This document shows, piece after piece, positions 19,837 through 27,104 of a stretch of DNA of 49,471 nucleotides (within the stretch, counting starts at the first letter, position 1; each line of letters begins with the position of its first letter). Both the position numbers and the translations under genes were made by a program. The DNA comes from Bacteroidota bacterium. GTDB lineage: Bacteria; Bacteroidota; Bacteroidia; Chitinophagales; Saprospiraceae. The stretch spans positions 1 through 49,471 of the forward strand of contig BJGN01000006.1 of the NCBI GenBank assembly GCA_014190515.1, written 5' to 3'. The notes under the pieces are model-generated. The model was not told the DNA's origin, did no database searches, and saw nothing but the letters and a program-made list of their open reading frames with translations.

Positions 19837-19937
19837 CTTTTTTTTGTAAAGATAAGTGGATTCGGATTAGACAAATCTGCTTTTTAAAATATTTGTATTT
19901 TTTTTTGGGAGGATGGTATTTCTTTAAAAAAGAATAC

Positions 19938-19945
19938 TATCTTTG
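19938..19945 (+). promoter_or_regulatory. -7 promoter box upstream of tRNA-Phe and the his leader
   Basis: A perfect TATCTTTG lies 29 bases before the tRNA-Phe gene. No other TAnnTTTG occurs between it and the his leader peptide, so it is the best candidate promoter for both the tRNA and the his operon. The -33 element is weak. Confidence 0.6.
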
Positions 19946-19974
19946 TCCCGCTCAAAAGAAGAGATTAATAGGAA

Positions 19975-20047
19975 GGTATGGTAGCTCAGTTGGTAGAGCA
20001 CAGGACTGAAAATCCTGGTGTCGGCGGTTCAATTCCGCCCCGTACCA
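19975..20047 (+). tRNA. tRNA-Phe (anticodon GAA)
   Basis: This 73-base cloverleaf has all arms paired. The acceptor GGTATGG pairs with CCGTACC (one G-U), and the D arm is GCTC/GAGC. The anticodon stem CAGGA/TCCTG encloses CTGAAAA with anticodon GAA at 20008-20010. The T arm GGCGG/CCGCC has the TTCAATT loop. The discriminator is A and the terminal CCA is not encoded. The T-rich stretch that follows has no hairpin of its own, and the his leader peptide starts 13 bases after the tRNA end. Confidence 0.97.
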
Positions 20048-20060
20048 CAATTTTTTTTAT

Positions 20061-20123
20061 ATGATTAACATAGCGTTTCATATTGGTCATCATCATCACG
20101 TACTACCTTGTAGTGTGGGTTGA
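20061..20123 (+). CDS. Histidine operon leader peptide
   Basis: A short frame ATG...TGA encodes MINIAFHIGHHHHVLPCSVG: five histidines in 20 residues, four of them consecutive (codons 20088-20099). The stop at 20121-20123 falls inside the 5' arm of the antiterminator. It is placed directly before a terminator hairpin and the hisG gene, which is the arrangement of ribosome-mediated attenuation. When charged tRNA-His is short, the ribosome would stall on the histidine run. When it is plentiful, the ribosome would reach the stop and cover the antiterminator arm. There is no Shine-Dalgarno site, as is usual in the phylum. Confidence 0.88.
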   Translation: MINIAFHIGHHHHVLPCSVG

Positions 20124-20182
20124 AACCGGTATAAATGGTTTAAAAGAGGTTTACCCACTCGTGGTTAAACCTCTTTTTTTTT
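20115..20182 (+). promoter_or_regulatory. his operon transcription attenuator (antiterminator/terminator pair)
   Basis: Two mutually exclusive structures are visible. The antiterminator pairs GTGGGT (20115-20120) plus AAACC (20123-20127) with GGTTTACCCAC (20148-20158): 11 base pairs with a two-base bulge. The terminator pairs AAAAGAGGTTTA (20142-20153) with TAAACCTCTTTT (20166-20177), with a small inner stem, and runs into nine T residues (20174-20182). Both use bases 20148-20153, so only one can form. hisG starts 15 bases after the T-tract. A smaller hairpin AAACC/GGTTT (20123-20141) may act in pausing. Confidence 0.88.
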
Positions 20183-20196
20183 GCAATTTTTATCAA

Positions 20197-21057
20197 ATGA
20201 GTGATATGCTTAAGTTAGCGGTACAAAAATCGGGAAGACTTCTTGAGGGTTCTTTAGATTTGTTGAAATCTTGTGGTATCAAAATTGATAATGGAGAAGA
20301 CCGGTTGCGTGTTACGGCCACTCATTTCCCAATGGAGCTTTATTTTTTAAGAAATTCAGATATTCCGCAATACGTTCAGGACGGTATCGCAGATATCGCT
20401 ATTCTCGGAGAAAATACGCTGGTGGAGAAAAATAGGGAGATGGATAAAATTATGCCTCTGGGTTTTTCAAAATGCCGTCTTTCTATTGCCGTACCCAAAG
20501 GGGTGAACTATACGGGCGTGCATTGGCTGGAAGGTAAAAAAATAGCTACTTCCTATCCGCATTCACTGGCAAATTATCTAGATGCCTTAAAGATAAAAGC
20601 TGAAATTCATGAGATTTCCGGCTCTGTAGAAATCGCTCCTAATATTGGTCTCGCCGATGCTATCTGTGATTTGGTGAGCAGTGGTTCCACGCTTTTCAAG
20701 AATAATTTGGTGGAAAAAGACATACTTTTCAAATCAGAAGCTTGGTTGGTATCACACAAAGCTATCTCCCAAGAAAAAAAGGTTTTACTCGATAAATTGA
20801 TATTTAGAATGAAAGCCGTACTTACTGCGGCGAATAATAAATACCTTTTGATGAATGTTCCTAATGATAAAGTAAAAGAAGTGATTGAGCTGCTACCAGG
20901 TATGAAAAGTCCAACCGTTATGCCGCTGGCAGACCAACAATGGAGTTCCGTACATACAGTGATTGGAGAAGATCAGTTTTGGGATATTATTGACAGATTA
21001 AAAGACGCAGGTGCTCAAGGGATTTTAGTTATTCCAATTCAAAAAATGATTCTATGA
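20197..21057 (+). CDS. hisG: ATP phosphoribosyltransferase
   Basis: HisG catalyses the first, feedback-controlled step of histidine synthesis (ATP + PRPP to phosphoribosyl-ATP). From ATG 20197 it is 286 residues, the long form with a C-terminal regulatory ACT-like domain (ending GILVIPIQKMIL). The N-terminus MLKLAVQKSGRL, DIAILGENTL around residue 70, and the PRPP-site segment DLVSSGSTLFKNNL are family features. An in-frame ATG at 20083 would run back through the attenuator and is not the true start. It is first in the operon and sits directly behind the terminator. hisD begins four bases before its stop. Confidence 0.95.
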   Translation: MSDMLKLAVQKSGRLLEGSLDLLKSCGIKIDNGEDRLRVTATHFPMELYFLRNSDIPQYVQDGIADIAILGENTLVEKNREMDKIMPLGFSKCRLSIAVPKGVNYTGVHWLEGKKIATSYPHSLANYLDALKIKAEIHEISGSVEIAPNIGLADAICDLVSSGSTLFKNNLVEKDILFKSEAWLVSHKAISQEKKVLLDKLIFRMKAVLTAANNKYLLMNVPNDKVKEVIELLPGMKSPTVMPLADQQWSSVHTVIGEDQFWDIIDRLKDAGAQGILVIPIQKMIL

Positions 21058-22355
21058 CTTCTTTTATAAAGCACTTTTATGATAATCCACCCAAGGTGGA
21101 ATGGGCAAAAATTCTTGCCAGGCCAAATCCCGGGGGTGCTGATATTTCTGCACTGGTTGCTGATATTCTGGTAGCCGTTAAAGAAAAAGGGGATCAGGCT
21201 ATTGTAGATTTTAATACCCAATTTGATGGATTTGACAGTGTGTCACTTGAAGTGACTGAAGAGGAAATAAAGGAAGCGGTTTTATCATTACCAGAAAATC
21301 TGAAAAAAGCTATACTAAGTGCAGCGGCTAATATTACCGCGTTTCACGAAAAGCAAAATGTAGATCAGGAACCTGTCGAAACTATGCCAGGTGTTTTATG
21401 TTGGCGAAAGAGTGTGCCTATTGAAAAAGTAGGTTTATACATTCCGGGTGGAACGGCGCCTCTGTTTTCAAGTGTACTTATGTTGGGTATTCCAGCTAAA
21501 ATAGCTGGTTGTAGTGAAATAATATTGTGCTCTCCTCCGCAGAAGGACGGAAAAATTCATCCGGCTATTTTATTTGCCGCTCATATTACGGGTATAACCC
21601 GGATATTTAAAACAGGGGGTGCTCAGGCAATCGCCGCTATGGCCTTCGGTACCGAAACCATTCCAGCCGTTTATAAAATAGCCGGACCAGGAAATAGGTA
21701 TGTCACAGAGGCAAAACAATCGGTCACAAAGTTTGGTGTAGCTATTGATATGCCCGCCGGACCAAGTGAGGTGCTGGTTTTTGCTGATGAAGGAGCAAAT
21801 CCTGCCTTTGTGGCTGCCGATTTACTCTCACAGGCTGAACATGGGGAAGATAGTCAGGTTGTGTTGATTTGTCCGGATAAAATGTTTTTTGAAAAGGTGG
21901 ATATTGAAATTGGTAAGCAATTAACCTTCTTGCCAAGAATGGAAATTGCAAAAAAAGCCCTTCAAAATAGTGTGGCCATCGCTGTAAATGATGCTGCCAT
22001 AGCGATGGATTTAATAAATGATTATGCGCCAGAACATTTGATCATAGCGTTCCGAAACCCAATCGATTTTGTGAATGATATCAGGAATGCTGGATCTGTA
22101 TTTCTTGGTGATTACACCCCTGAAGCGGTAGGTGATTATGCTTCGGGTACTAATCATACTTTGCCAACCAATGGTTTTGCCCGCGCTTTTAGCGGAGTTT
22201 CTGTTGATTCTTTTATAAAAAAGATTACTTTTCAACAAGTTAGCCAATCTGGATTAACTACATTGGGGCCAATCGTTATGACTATGGCGGAAGCTGAACG
22301 GCTCGAAGCCCATAAGCAAGCAGTTTCAATCAGACTTGATAATCTTCAATTATGA
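21054..22355 (+). CDS. hisD: Histidinol dehydrogenase
   Basis: HisD is the zinc-dependent enzyme for the last two oxidations, L-histidinol to L-histidine with two NAD. Its 433-residue length is normal. Motifs include VGLYIPGGTAPLFSS, KTGGAQAIAAMAFG, KIAGPGNRYV, DMPAGPSEVLV and the zinc-site segment LLSQAEHG. The end carries the expected NHTLPTNGFARAFSGVSVDSF segment. The start overlaps hisG (ATGA) and the stop overlaps the next gene by four bases, so translation through this stretch is coupled. Confidence 0.96.
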   Translation: MTSFIKHFYDNPPKVEWAKILARPNPGGADISALVADILVAVKEKGDQAIVDFNTQFDGFDSVSLEVTEEEIKEAVLSLPENLKKAILSAAANITAFHEKQNVDQEPVETMPGVLCWRKSVPIEKVGLYIPGGTAPLFSSVLMLGIPAKIAGCSEIILCSPPQKDGKIHPAILFAAHITGITRIFKTGGAQAIAAMAFGTETIPAVYKIAGPGNRYVTEAKQSVTKFGVAIDMPAGPSEVLVFADEGANPAFVAADLLSQAEHGEDSQVVLICPDKMFFEKVDIEIGKQLTFLPRMEIAKKALQNSVAIAVNDAAIAMDLINDYAPEHLIIAFRNPIDFVNDIRNAGSVFLGDYTPEAVGDYASGTNHTLPTNGFARAFSGVSVDSFIKKITFQQVSQSGLTTLGPIVMTMAEAERLEAHKQAVSIRLDNLQL

Positions 22356-23542
22356 GGAATATAGCCTTTTTGTTATTGATTTTTCTCTCTTATTTTTCGC
22401 TTAAGGGCCAGTCGTTCCTTTCAGGGAGAACCTATTATAGCGATAAGGAATATATAGAATATTTCGCTGGAAATATGCCTCTTATTTTGACAGTACCCCA
22501 TGGAGGTTTGTTAGTTCCATCTACTATTCCTAATAGGAATTGTGCTGAATGTGTGACCGTTATGGATACAAATACCCAAGAACTAGGAAGATTAATTGCC
22601 GATGAGATTAAAAAAATTACTGGGGGGAATTGTTTTCCTCATCTTATTATTAATCGCCTGAGACGAACGAAACTTGACGCAAACAGAGATCTTTTTGAGG
22701 CAGCTTTAGATAATCCCGACGCTGTAAATGCTTGGTATGCCTTCCATAAGTTTATTGATTCTGCCAAAATGATGGTCGCCAATCAGTTTCAACGAGGCTT
22801 ATTGATAGACCTTCACGGTCACGGTCATGCCATTCAAAGACTGGAATTGGGTTATTTACTCTCTGCTTCCAATCTTAGAAGTGGGAATAATTTTCTGAAC
22901 AGCCAGGTGGCTATAGAAAATAGTAGTATCAGGCATTTAGCCTCAAATAATAAAAATGAATACCGTCACGCTGAATTGTTGAATGGTCAGGAGAGTTTGG
23001 GTGGATTTTTTGAAACAGAACGTTATACCGCAGTGCCTGGCCCCGCAGATATTGCACCAAGAAGTGGGGAGGATTATTTTTCCGGAGGATACAATACAGA
23101 GAGACATGGCTCGGTGGATAGTGGAAAAATAGATGCTATACAAATTGAATGTAATTTTAAAGGGGTAAGGGATTCAGAAATAGCTCTCCAGTTTTTTGCT
23201 GAAGCTACAGCTAATGCATTGGTTAAATTTTTAAAAACTCACTATTTTGGTAAAGATGGATTTTCATGTCCTACTTCTATAACCAGTAATTTTGAAAAAA
23301 ATACGGAGTTATCTTTTAGCGTATTTCCTAATCCCGCCTGCGAATCGGTCACGTTGAATTTACCTTCTCCGGGTACGCTGCGAATGTATAACGCAACCGG
23401 GCAGGTTTTAAATGAATTTTCTTTTCTCAAGGATGGCGAATATGCTCTTCCTTTAGCGTTTATTGATAAGTTTGTTCTTCTTCAATTTATTGGTAAAGAT
23501 GGATCAGGTGCTTCCATGAAACTTATACGTCAATGTTATTGA
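22352..23542 (+). CDS. Secreted N-formylglutamate amidohydrolase-like protein with T9SS tail
   Basis: A 396-residue protein embedded in the his operon. It has a signal peptide (residues 1-20, ...LKGQS). The catalytic-type domain, about residues 35-300, carries VPHGG, a RTKLDANRDLFEA segment, DLHGHGH and IQIECNF, in the order seen in N-formylglutamate amidohydrolase (FGase) zinc hydrolases. Residues from about 318 form a T9SS sorting domain with FPNP and a LRMYNATGQVL strand, so it should be exported to the surface. It overlaps hisD by four bases and hisC by ten. The family fit is good. The substrate is unknown, since a surface enzyme is unlikely to act in intracellular histidine degradation. 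Confidence 0.85.
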   Translation: MRNIAFLLLIFLSYFSLKGQSFLSGRTYYSDKEYIEYFAGNMPLILTVPHGGLLVPSTIPNRNCAECVTVMDTNTQELGRLIADEIKKITGGNCFPHLIINRLRRTKLDANRDLFEAALDNPDAVNAWYAFHKFIDSAKMMVANQFQRGLLIDLHGHGHAIQRLELGYLLSASNLRSGNNFLNSQVAIENSSIRHLASNNKNEYRHAELLNGQESLGGFFETERYTAVPGPADIAPRSGEDYFSGGYNTERHGSVDSGKIDAIQIECNFKGVRDSEIALQFFAEATANALVKFLKTHYFGKDGFSCPTSITSNFEKNTELSFSVFPNPACESVTLNLPSPGTLRMYNATGQVLNEFSFLKDGEYALPLAFIDKFVLLQFIGKDGSGASMKLIRQCY

Positions 23543-24597
23543 ATAAATTAGACTTCAACCGCCTGGTGCGCGCAAATATTCTTAAGCTCACTCCTTATTC
23601 GTCGGCAAGGGGAGAGTTCAAAGGTTCTGCCTCCGTTTTTTTGGATGCGAATGAAAATCCTTTCGATTCTGGGTATAATCGATATCCTGATCCGCTGCAA
23701 TTAACCCTAAAAGATAAAATTAGTGCCCTTTGGCATGTTCCCGTCCATTCTATTTTTCTAGGAAATGGAAGTGATGAACCTATTGATTTACTCGTTCGTC
23801 TTTTCTGTGAACCAGGCTTAGATCATATCATTATAACTCCTCCCACCTACGGAATGTATCGTGTCGCCGCTGATATTGCGGGGGTTGAAGTCAAAGAAAT
23901 AAATCTTCTCACTGATTTTCAACTTCCCGTTAAGAATATACTCGAACAGGCAAATGAACACAGTAAAATCCTATTCTTATGCAGCCCCAATAATCCAACG
24001 GGGAACCTTTTAAATAAGGAGGATATTATTCAGATTATCCATCATTTTCCGGGTATTGTAGTACTCGATGAAGCCTACACCGACTTTGCAGAGAATACCA
24101 GCTTCCTTCCGGAGCTCTCTAATTTTCCAAATTTGGTCATCCTCCAGACGTTCTCTAAAGCATGGGGCCTTGCTGCTATTCGATTGGGAATGGCCTTCGC
24201 TTCTATGGAAATTATAGATTTGCTCAATAAGATTAAATCTCCCTACAATCTAAATATTTTAACTATAGATTTTATCCTTCGTCAACTTGACTTTTTAAAG
24301 GAAAAAAATGACGCAGTGGACATTTTAGTAAAGGAAAGACACCTGCTGATAGAACATTTTAAGTCTTTTACCTTTATAAACAAAGTAAATCGTTCCGACG
24401 CTAATTTTATCCTCATTCAGTTAGATGACGCAGATGGACTTTACCAATTTCTTGTTTCTAAAGGCATTATCGTGAGAAATAGGTCAAACATGCCACTTTG
24501 CGAGGGAGGATTAAGAATTACCGTAGGTACAACGCTGGAAAATAATAATCTTTTAGCGTCCATGAGCGAATGGGCCAGTTTAAAATCTTTATCATGA
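23533..24597 (+). CDS. hisC: Histidinol-phosphate aminotransferase
   Basis: HisC transfers an amino group from glutamate to imidazole-acetol phosphate, using PLP. The 354-residue class I/II aminotransferase has the [11 protein letters not shown] substrate loop, [30 protein letters not shown] and the PLP lysine in [14 protein letters not shown]. The C-terminal arginine segment is GGLRITVGT. The chosen ATG lies inside the upstream gene's last codons (ten-base overlap), and a TTG at 23539 is an alternative. Its stop shares bases with the hisB ATG. Confidence 0.95.
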
Positions 24598-25730
24598 AAA
24601 GAGTTTTATTTATAGATAGGGACGGAACATTAGTGTTTGAACCTGCTGATTATCAAATAGATAGTAAGGAAAAAGTTTCCTTTTTACCTGCCGTTTTTGC
24701 TTCATTGGCGCGTATTTGTAAAGAAACTGATTTTGAATTGGTTATGGTGACCAATCAGGATGGATTAGGCACAGATTCCTTCCCGGAAAATACTTTTTGG
24801 CCAGCTCATGAATTCATTTTAGATGCCTTTAAGAAGGAGTCGGTTGTTTTCAGTGAAGTTTATATCGACAAATCTTTCCCTCACGAAAATGCTCCCACCC
24901 GGAAACCCAGGCTTGGCATGCTGCAAAAGTATTTGTCCAATGAGTATGATCTTAAAAATTCCTGGGTCATCGGTGATCGATTAACCGATATGGAATTGGC
25001 CTATAATCTTGGTGCAAAAGGTATTTTTATCACAAGCAATGAGGAACTAGGTGTACAGGAGGTAGGTCGGGATATGACCGATATTAATAAAGTGATTGCC
25101 CTGAAAACGAGAGATTGGAATGAAATGGCATCCTTTTTATGTCAACAAAGAGGGCCAGTCACCTTATCAAGAAAGACCCTGGAAACAGATATTTTCGTAA
25201 GTCTTAATCTCGATGGTGCAGGTAATTATAATCATCAAACCGGATTGGGTTTCTTTAATCACATGTTGGATCAATTGGCTAAACACAGTGGAATAGATTT
25301 ATCTGTAACCGTTTCTGGTGATTTACATATTGATGAACATCATACTATAGAAGATACCGCCCTTGCTCTGGGCGCCGCATTTAAAAAGGCATTGGGGGAT
25401 AAAAGAGGTATTGAAAGATACGGTTTTTTTATTTTACCTATGGATGATGCTTTGGCTCAGGTGGCCATAGATTTTAGTGGAAGATCCTGGTTGGTGTGGA
25501 ATGCCTCTTTTCTAAGGGAAAAAGTAGGCGATTTTCCAACGGAAATGGTGTATCATTTCTTTAAATCCTTTTCTGATGCCGCAGCTTGCAATATTAATAT
25601 TGCGGTGAGTGGGGAAAATGAACACCATAAAATAGAGGCACTTTTCAAATCTTTTGCCAAAGCTATAAAAATGGCAGTGAAAAAAGACCCGGAAAACCAT
25701 GCGTTACCTTCCACAAAGGGTTTGATTTAA
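24594..25730 (+). CDS. hisB: Bifunctional histidinol-phosphatase/imidazoleglycerol-phosphate dehydratase
   Basis: A 378-residue fused HisB performing two non-adjacent steps. The N-terminal half is a HAD phosphatase with the [10 protein letters not shown] nucleophile motif, a metal-binding Cys/His-type loop reduced to [12 protein letters not shown], and [10 protein letters not shown]. The C-terminal half from about residue 190 is the dehydratase with [25 protein letters not shown] and the late EHHKIEA histidine motif. The start at 24594 (ATGA overlap with hisC) is preferred to an ATG eight codons upstream. Fused HisB is common in Bacteroidota. Confidence 0.95.
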
Positions 25731-25739
25731 ATTGATTTT

Positions 25740-26339
25740 ATGAGTCAGCAAATTGCCGTTATTCAATATAATGCAGGAAATATACACTCCGTATTATCCG
25801 CTTTACATCGACTTGGTTTCAAGGGTATCCTTACCGATAATCCGGAGATTATTCAATCTTCCGACAAAGTTATTTTTCCCGGAGTGGGTGAGGCCAGGTC
25901 AACTATGAATCATTTAAGGGGAAAAGGTTTGGATGAGATTATTAAAAACTTAACCCAACCGGTCCTTGGAATTTGTTTGGGAATGCAACTTCTATGTAAA
26001 CATTCAGAGGAAAATGACACAGATTGTTTGGGAATTATTCCCCTTGAAGTGAAAAAATTTATTCCCCAACAGAGGGAAAATGTTCCCCATGTCGGTTGGA
26101 ATACCCTGCTGAATACCCAAAATATACTCTTTGATGGACTTCCTGAAAATTCTTTTGCCTATTTTGTGCATAGTTACTATGCAACGTTGGGGTCTGAAAC
26201 CATAGCACAAACTGATTATATTTTTCCTTTTAGTGCAGCGGTCCAAAAAGATAATTTTTACGCAACGCAGTTCCATCCCGAAAAATCCGGATGGGTTGGA
26301 GAAAAAATTCTTAATAATTTCTTAAATATCGCTCCCTAA
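25740..26339 (+). CDS. hisH: Imidazole glycerol phosphate synthase, glutamine amidotransferase subunit
   Basis: HisH hydrolyses glutamine and passes ammonia to HisF. The 199-residue class I amidotransferase has IQYNAGNIHSV, the oxyanion segment FPGVGEARSTM, the catalytic cysteine in GICLGMQLL and the His-Glu pair in FHPEKSG. It follows hisB after nine bases. Its obligate partner hisF is not in this window and must be elsewhere in the genome for the enzyme to work. Confidence 0.95.
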   Translation: MSQQIAVIQYNAGNIHSVLSALHRLGFKGILTDNPEIIQSSDKVIFPGVGEARSTMNHLRGKGLDEIIKNLTQPVLGICLGMQLLCKHSEENDTDCLGIIPLEVKKFIPQQRENVPHVGWNTLLNTQNILFDGLPENSFAYFVHSYYATLGSETIAQTDYIFPFSAAVQKDNFYATQFHPEKSGWVGEKILNNFLNIAP

Positions 26340-26360
26340 TTCATTTCTTAAATTGTATGT

Positions 26361-27104
26361 ATGATTATTATTCCTGCCATTGATATTATAGGTGGAAAAT
26401 GCGTAAGATTAACGCAAGGTGACTATAATCAAAAGATTGAGTATAATTCCAATCCATTGGAAGTTGCCAAACTTTTTGAAGGAAATGGATTAAATTATTT
26501 GCACGTTGTTGATCTTGATGGTGCTAAGGCTGGTAAAATTGTCAATTATCAAATCTTAGAACAAATTACTCATCGAACCAATCTAAAGGTTGATTTTGGG
26601 GGTGGATTGAAATCAAATGACGATTTGAAAACAGCTTTTGAATGTGGCGCCAATCAAGTTACAGGAGGTACTATCGCTGTCAAAAATAAGGCTTTATTCC
26701 TTCATTGGCTGGAACAATTCGGGGCAGAAAAAATAATATTAGGTGCTGATTTCAAAGCGGATTATATAGCAACTGACGGTTGGCAGGAATCGAGTGATAA
26801 CTTGCTTTTACCCTTCTTGGAAAGTTATTTTAAAGAAGGAATTAGGTATGTCATTTCAACAGACATAAGTAAAGATGGCCTATTAAAGGGTTGTTCTTTA
26901 ACTAAATACGAAGAAATAAGACACAAATTGCCTGAAATAAAACTGATAGCCAGCGGGGGAGTAACGACGGTAGATGAGTTAGACAAATTATTTGAACTCG
27001 GTTGCCATGGGGCTATAATTGGTAAAGCGCTCTATGAAGGTCACTTTACAGCAAAAGCTTTAGGTCTTCTTCAGGAAACATATTTTTCAAAACATGGGAG
27101 CTAG
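26361..27104 (+). CDS. hisA: ProFAR isomerase
   Basis: HisA, 1-(5-phosphoribosyl)-5-[(5-phosphoribosylamino)methylideneamino]imidazole-4-carboxamide isomerase, is a 247-residue TIM barrel. The N-terminal catalytic aspartate is in IPAIDIIGGKCVRL, and the central motif is DLDGAKAGK. The second catalytic aspartate is in ISTDISKDGLLKG, and the phosphate-binding loops are DFGGGLKS, ASGGVTTVDEL and GAIIGKALYEG. The ISTDISKDG wording and the LTQGDY start separate it from HisF. It is the last his gene here. uvrA follows after 56 bases, so hisF and hisI/E are not part of this transcript. Confidence 0.93.
   Translation: MIIIPAIDIIGGKCVRLTQGDYNQKIEYNSNPLEVAKLFEGNGLNYLHVVDLDGAKAGKIVNYQILEQITHRTNLKVDFGGGLKSNDDLKTAFECGANQVTGGTIAVKNKALFLHWLEQFGAEKIILGADFKADYIATDGWQESSDNLLLPFLESYFKEGIRYVISTDISKDGLLKGCSLTKYEEIRHKLPEIKLIASGGVTTVDELDKLFELGCHGAIIGKALYEGHFTAKALGLLQETYFSKHGS

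Follow-up and report, generated by a model that had tools for sequence, protein, structure and literature searches.

A predicted leader-peptide attenuator between a tRNA-Phe gene and the his operon of a Saprospiraceae bacterium

Attenuation of the his operon in Escherichia coli and Salmonella is the textbook case of control by a leader peptide, the enteric leader carrying a run of seven His. Attenuators in Bacteroidetes/Chlorobi are said to have been named by Vitreschak and co-workers in a comparative study of 2004. As of 2010, leader-peptide systems were, ermC apart, known from Proteobacteria and Actinobacteria, with Firmicutes then added (excerpt of PMC2965389), and for some Firmicutes His-leader attenuators have been predicted in which a short leader containing three to five His codons is combined with hairpins that can form alternatively (excerpt of PMC9413887). 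The latter leaders are of the same type as the one described here, from another lineage, and the excerpt mentions no upstream tRNA. Within the phylum, mapped transcripts of Flavobacterium psychrophilum gave strong indications that leader peptides attenuate amino-acid operons (PMC9723704); the main text does not contain the word histidine, and an upstream tRNA is not mentioned in the sections cited. Leader-peptide-like ORFs are mentioned for Bacteroides thetaiotaomicron (PMC7366714, cited in part), leader genes in general are treated in sections of PMC4833913, and a 2021 study of the his genes of the superphylum mentions attenuation for enterics, the word leader being absent from the sections cited (PMC8305728). 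Among the matches listed, none, as far as its excerpt goes, treats a tRNA gene preceding a his attenuator or surveys his leader peptides across Bacteroidota.

The stretch of DNA analysed here (49,471 nucleotides, hereafter the window) makes up contig C6; the genome totals 3.57 Mb and is split into 355 contigs. The closest HisG loci in genome_contigs, with 97–99% identity, come from MAGs labelled Haliscomenobacteraceae, Saprospiraceae, Bacteroidetes and Haliscomenobacter hydrossis. The following features of the window are referred to below:

19938–19945, + strand: TAnnTTTG -7 box TATCTTTG, putative promoter for both tRNA-Phe and the his genes, the sole such box between 19700 and hisG and invariant in seven genus members
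19975–20048, + strand: tRNA-Phe(GAA), detected with ARAGORN and as Rfam RF00005 (73.3 bits), the only tRNA-Phe found in the genome
20049–20060, + strand: U-rich spacer of 12 nt from the tRNA to the leader ATG, without promoter box and too short for a hairpin terminator
20061–20123, + strand: leader ORF MINIAFHIGHHHHVLPCSVG of 20 codons, with His at codons 7 and 10–13 (run 20088–20099)
20074–20087, + strand: 5' arm of P1, a tentative third helix, pairing with 20125–20137
20115–20127, + strand: antiterminator 5' arm, containing the leader stop codon UGA (20121–20123)
20142–20177, + strand: intrinsic terminator hairpin, with T run 20174–20182
20148–20158, + strand: antiterminator 3' arm, of which 20148–20153 is common to the terminator
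20197–21057, + strand: hisG, the first gene of the operon (TIGR00070, 178.8 bits)
21054–27104, + strand: remaining gene row, hisD, an N-formylglutamate-amidohydrolase-like gene, hisC, hisB, hisH and hisA

The amidohydrolase-like gene within the his gene row (22352–23542, 396 aa) has a weak likeness to N-formylglutamate amidohydrolase, under the cut-off of Pfam.

The locus resembles the enteric his leader in its His-run peptide, in an antiterminator and a terminator that share bases, in its place before hisG and in its inferred logic, and differs from it by the run of four His and by the tRNA gene 12 nt upstream of the leader. The original prediction had passed over this tRNA-Phe gene; what it said of the leader itself, namely a 20-codon ORF with five His codons of which four are consecutive, a stop codon within one arm of an 11-bp antiterminator, and bases 20148–20153 common to two mutually exclusive structures, was borne out throughout. 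The antiterminator pairs 20115–20120 with 20153–20158 and 20123–20127 with 20148–20152 (11 bp, 2-nt bulge), and the terminator pairs 20142–20153 with 20166–20177, plus 3 bp between 20155–20157 and 20162–20164. A stem of about 12 bp followed by nine T had also been claimed. Both stem and T run are present, but not all nine T lie behind the stem: four of them (20174–20182) form its last A-U pairs, so that the stem consists of 8 bp and 4 A-U pairs, followed by five unpaired T. The 14 nt that separate the T run from hisG are too few for a promoter, which speaks against a hisG transcript starting downstream of 20182. The region 20049–20185 folds at -34.8 kcal/mol as compared to -22.7 ± 3.1 for 200 shuffles (z -3.85, no shuffle as low).

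The RF00514 His_leader model had no match in the window at gathering score, nor up to E 10 in 19900–20260, and 20 related loci likewise gave no match at gathering score. A T-box covariance model had no match in the window, and in 19900–20260 at a permissive Rfam threshold only tRNA reached gathering score, with 17 other matches below it. The Bacteroid-trp motif RF01692, a trp leader and not a histidine one, had no match in the window either; it is listed as a cis-regulatory RNA of Bacteroidetes in the cited part of PMC2864571. The proposal that an unrelated sequence here works like the enteric his leader is supported without an RF00514 match, by the arrangement of its parts.

Folding with a masked ribosome (assumed footprint -18 to +14 of the A site) was used to follow both states of the switch. 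In a transcript reaching 20158, before the terminator 3' arm, the antiterminator had a probability of 0.884–0.888 with the ribosome on His codons 10, 11 or 13, of 0.008 in free RNA and of 0 with the ribosome at the stop, in line with the expectation that a ribosome on the His run favours the antiterminator and one at the stop blocks it. In the complete leader transcript, the terminator reached about 0.95 in every ribosome state. As the terminator is favoured in all states of the finished transcript, the switch can only be kinetic, and the order of events must decide. The P1 helix reached 0.91 in free RNA to 20158 and would possibly keep the antiterminator from forming in the absence of leader translation; with two changes among relatives keeping and three breaking its pairs, a role of P1 in forcing termination of the untranslated leader was not adopted. 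All parts of an attenuator are present and workably arranged, and the modelling supports the proposed stalled-ribosome geometry.

To place the locus among its relatives, a HisG search was evaluated that yielded 57 loci from genome_contigs and hits in 122 of 199 genomes of the window's family. After removal of copies (L001, L059, L060, L176–L178) and cut loci (L058, without hisG start; L063 and L168, with less than 150 nt upstream), 170 upstream regions were counted. A His-run ORF, here meaning a short ORF in which three or more of five residues are His, was found in 157/170 regions, as compared to 9/170 on the reverse strand; with at least four His in five the numbers were 125/170 and 1/170. 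The remaining 13 of the 170 regions had no passing His-run ORF, two of them being cut by contig ends. The run is specific to His, with at least four of five residues in 115/170 regions as compared to 17 for the next amino acids, in a count in which ten loci were misoriented. In a separate phylum-wide sample, hisG was found in 128/148 genomes, 110 of which were examined; outside these 110 were two genomes already in the first set (G000 and G080) and 16 others, including G268 of the window's class. His-run ORFs occurred in 64/110 of these genomes (reverse strand 2/110), following lineage: all 30 examined genomes of the window's class (families f1, f2, f3, f4, f5 and f8) had one, as had 12/12 in f14, 18/18 in f21, 3/4 in f19 and 1/2 in f27, and 0/44 genomes of thirteen other families in this sample. 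As the attenuator is very common in the window's class, its presence in this genome is no surprise.

A terminator, defined as a hairpin with T run of at most -8 kcal/mol, followed the leader stop in 150/156 distinct loci as compared to 25/780 dinucleotide shuffles. In the phylum sample it was found at -8 kcal/mol in 38/64 leader loci versus 3/192 shuffles, and the 26/64 leaders lacking one at that threshold belonged to f21 (18), f3 (5), f8 (2) and f19 (1). Among 46 loci without a leader, 5 had a -10 kcal/mol terminator no farther than 200 nt from hisG. The 3' part of the leader, from the His run to the terminator, was complementary to the terminator 5' arm at p ≤ 0.05 in 103/152 terminator-bearing loci (mononucleotide shuffles; p 0.013 for the window's own leader), and in the same test the antiterminator was not significant in 49/152. 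A duplex of at most -12 kcal/mol was formed by 113/152 own pairs versus 319/1511 pairs between different loci. The antiterminator arm covered the stop codon in 64 of the 103 significant loci and not in the other 39.

Since close relatives show hardly any variation, the antiterminator is supported chiefly by this comparison of different loci. The His run was expected to persist in the genus and does so, with HHHH in four of seven members and three His in L004, L005 and L006. Of the predicted conservation of the pairing arms in the six close relatives, the integrity of the pairs was confirmed, none of the 15 terminator and 11 antiterminator pairs being broken; covariation proved too scant, as one pair of each structure varies, and was dropped as support because the structures change too little within the genus. 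The attenuator parts, their recurrence and the mutual exclusion of the two structures can be read directly from the sequences. Together they suggest, with a high degree of confidence, that the mechanism is a classical leader-peptide his attenuator reading charged tRNA-His through a short leader with a His run.

The E. coli thrU-tufB unit is a tRNA-mRNA cotranscript, and we know of no attenuator between tRNA and genes in such cotranscripts. Likewise in the window, a tRNA and a protein gene follow each other without a terminator between them: neither a terminator nor a TAnnTTTG box, which we take to be the Bacteroidota -7 promoter consensus, separates the tRNA from the leader and hisG, and no such box occurs from 19946 to hisG. 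The promoter scans covered TAnnTTTG and the sigma70 consensus; the sigma70-type scan gave 32 matches versus 29.4 expected and was discarded as uninformative. The window's genome (G000) has one BLAST match and one pattern match for tRNA-Phe. Terminators start within 30 nt behind 18 of its 33 tRNA rows, and in the other rows the next tRNA follows, the row is cut, or there is no close terminator (tRNA-Trp, some tRNA-Arg); the reading of the flanks took in 30 of the 33 tRNA matches. Behind the tRNA-Phe of the window no terminator was found before the attenuator.

Among the 170 regions, 40 have tRNA-Phe upstream of hisG, and a scan of the 600 nt before hisG in 280 regions found no other kind of tRNA. 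The distance from tRNA to leader is 0–26 nt in 28 loci, here termed fused together with the tandem locus L126, whose first leader lies 21 nt from the tRNA, and 51–209 nt in ten separated loci; L121 is linked to the tRNA without a passing His-run ORF. In 37/40 linked loci the 80 nt preceding the tRNA include a TAnnTTTG box (background 0.09 per 80 nt); these comprise all 29 fused loci, none of which has a box in the spacer; the short spacer of these 29 holds neither promoter box nor terminator. Four fused loci (L066, L067, L071 and L080) have an extra TAnnTTTG box between tRNA and hisG, 149–169 nt before hisG. Nine of the ten separated loci have a terminator of their own between tRNA and leader, and L073 and L076 carry a strict TAnnTTTG box inside the spacer. 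Of the 28 fused loci, 27 have a -10 kcal/mol terminator behind the leader, starting 93–118 nt past the tRNA. Reading on from the tRNA end, one meets the first hairpin with T run past the leader stop in 26/28; L067 has one within the leader ORF, and L087 has a terminator that passes only if a looser T run is allowed, in which case L072 too has a hairpin within the leader ORF. A degenerate tRNA-Phe pattern, which a diverged second copy could escape, matched exactly once in each of 39 genomes, of which 36 are linked; one of the linked genomes, G062, is a single contig. The single tRNA-Phe match per linked genome and the bare short spacers together indicate that the attenuator probably also serves to terminate tRNA-Phe transcription.

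The fused loci span 17 genus codes of one family, with L002, L003, L005 and L006 lacking a code. In a quick HisG tree of 69 rows, in which 28/66 inner branches are weak, the unlinked label needs 7 changes as compared to 22.1 in shuffles, which places the link in clusters; one branch with support 93 holds 36 linked rows, 5 unlinked rows and 1 unknown row. We propose, with a probability of about 0.65, that the sole tRNA-Phe gene heads the his operon across a large group within the window's family, that one promoter serves both, that tRNA processing makes the 5' end of the leader, and that the attenuator picks between a tRNA end and a his mRNA. What appears new, going by the literature matches listed, is an apparently sole tRNA-Phe gene with a histidine attenuator as its first terminator, in 17 genus codes of one family, by a mechanism that would itself be classical.

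That tRNA-Phe and the his operon share one transcript seems probable to us, and it is this part alone that would fall if a promoter of another type overlapped the tRNA gene and gave a genuine attenuator its own transcript, the two units merely adjoining. Such an arrangement would agree with the ten linked loci in which tRNA and leader are apart, nine with a terminator between them and L073 and L076 with a box in the spacer, and the promoter scans were limited to TAnnTTTG and the sigma70 consensus. It is unlikely, however, in view of the 29 loci with a spacer of 0–26 nt and no box, of the window's sole box between 19700 and hisG preceding the tRNA, and of the genome's tRNA rows, 18/33 with a terminator within 30 nt and tRNA-Phe with none before the attenuator. 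The hairpin could alternatively be nothing but the terminator of tRNA-Phe, the His-run ORF being no sensor and hisG being reached by leaky read-through; it is indeed the first terminator-like site past the tRNA in the window. Yet many relatives without a tRNA at this place have a His-run ORF and terminator before hisG, and the specificity of the run to His (115/170 versus 17 for the next amino acids, ten loci being misoriented in that count) makes this explanation highly improbable.

Equally improbable is that the leader governs access to the hisG start rather than transcription. Leader loci without intrinsic terminator do occur elsewhere in the phylum (a terminator at -8 kcal/mol in 0/18 for f21 and 0/5 for f3), but the window does have one, complete with T run, and the folds of 20049–20240 and of 20137–20240 both leave the hisG ATG free of pairing. 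His-rich peptides bind metals, and the 20-residue peptide could be functional itself, for example as a metal binder or as a nascent chain, which would fit the recurrence between lineages of parts behind the His run such as HHHHFHTCTQAS; the motif is absent from most leaders, including that of the window, and may reflect RNA pairing instead, and we regard this as the least probable of the explanations.

According to the attenuator reading with a shared transcript, transcription would start before tRNA-Phe (box 19938) and run through tRNA and leader. By default it would stop at the terminator 20142–20182, giving the 3' end of the tRNA-Phe unit. With scarce His-tRNA, a ribosome coupled to the polymerase would stall on 20088–20099 and leave 20115–20127 free, the antiterminator would form ahead of the synthesis of the terminator 3' arm, and the polymerase would continue into hisG; with ample histidine, the ribosome at the stop would cover the antiterminator arm and the terminator would form. 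Processing of the tRNA would release the leader RNA. If this holds, the promoter would link tRNA-Phe supply to histidine synthesis, with only the attenuator setting them apart, and in the tRNA-headed form one transcript could serve both an ever-needed stable RNA and an operon for starvation only. The fused and separated forms among relatives provide ready comparisons. Leader-peptide attenuation requires translation keeping pace with transcription, and his attenuators so common in a class of Bacteroidota imply transcription-translation coupling there. Most translation initiation in Bacteroidota is considered to proceed independently of Shine-Dalgarno pairing.

Several other leader forms were observed among the relatives. 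QA, QS or QT comes no more than six residues after a His pair in 20/48 leaders of the contig set, 17/102 of the family and 11/64 of the phylum sample. Leaders from Flavobacteriales and from some members of the window's family repeatedly show a HHHHFHTCTQAS-like motif downstream of the His run (part of L018–L032, L093, L099, L100, L105, L109, L112, L144, L145, L150 and L209–L288). The view that the peptide is unconserved outside the His run was ruled out by this recurring motif.

Tandem his leaders before hisG, each with its own terminator, were found in 10/279 distinct regions. Seven of these (L033, L038, L042, L043, L045, L050 and L056) are from Carboxylicivirga and a Marinilabiliaceae bacterium and three (L126, L151 and L158) from the window's family, the pair of L126 following tRNA-Phe. 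Tandem attenuators with two leader ORFs in series are described for Salmonella mgtCBR (excerpt of PMC3641672); both cases have serial leader ORFs, mgtCBR with other genes and signals and the his loci with two His leaders.

Family f21 has a His-rich leader in 18/18 loci (L180–L182, L186, L194–L196, L201, L205, L206, L210, L212, L223, L224, L238, L248, L264 and L266) and no intrinsic terminator. The stretch from leader to hisG is nearly unstructured, C-rich and G-poor in this family, with a C/G ratio of 2.81 and an MFE of -0.038 per nt as compared to -0.221 in f5, and looks like a possible Rho-dependent form of his attenuation.

A Phe codon is present in the leaders of 26/28 fused loci as compared to 43/70 unlinked leaders of the family (L002–L007, L061–L156; Fisher p 0.0015, or 0.009 without six near-copies). 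As the loci are related by descent, no conclusion is drawn from this excess, which perhaps reflects only common descent. Elsewhere in the window's genome (L326, G000:C4), a tRNA-Trp is followed after 19 nt by the start of a 62-aa ORF, with the first terminator-like site at 120 nt, possibly forming another tRNA-mRNA unit.
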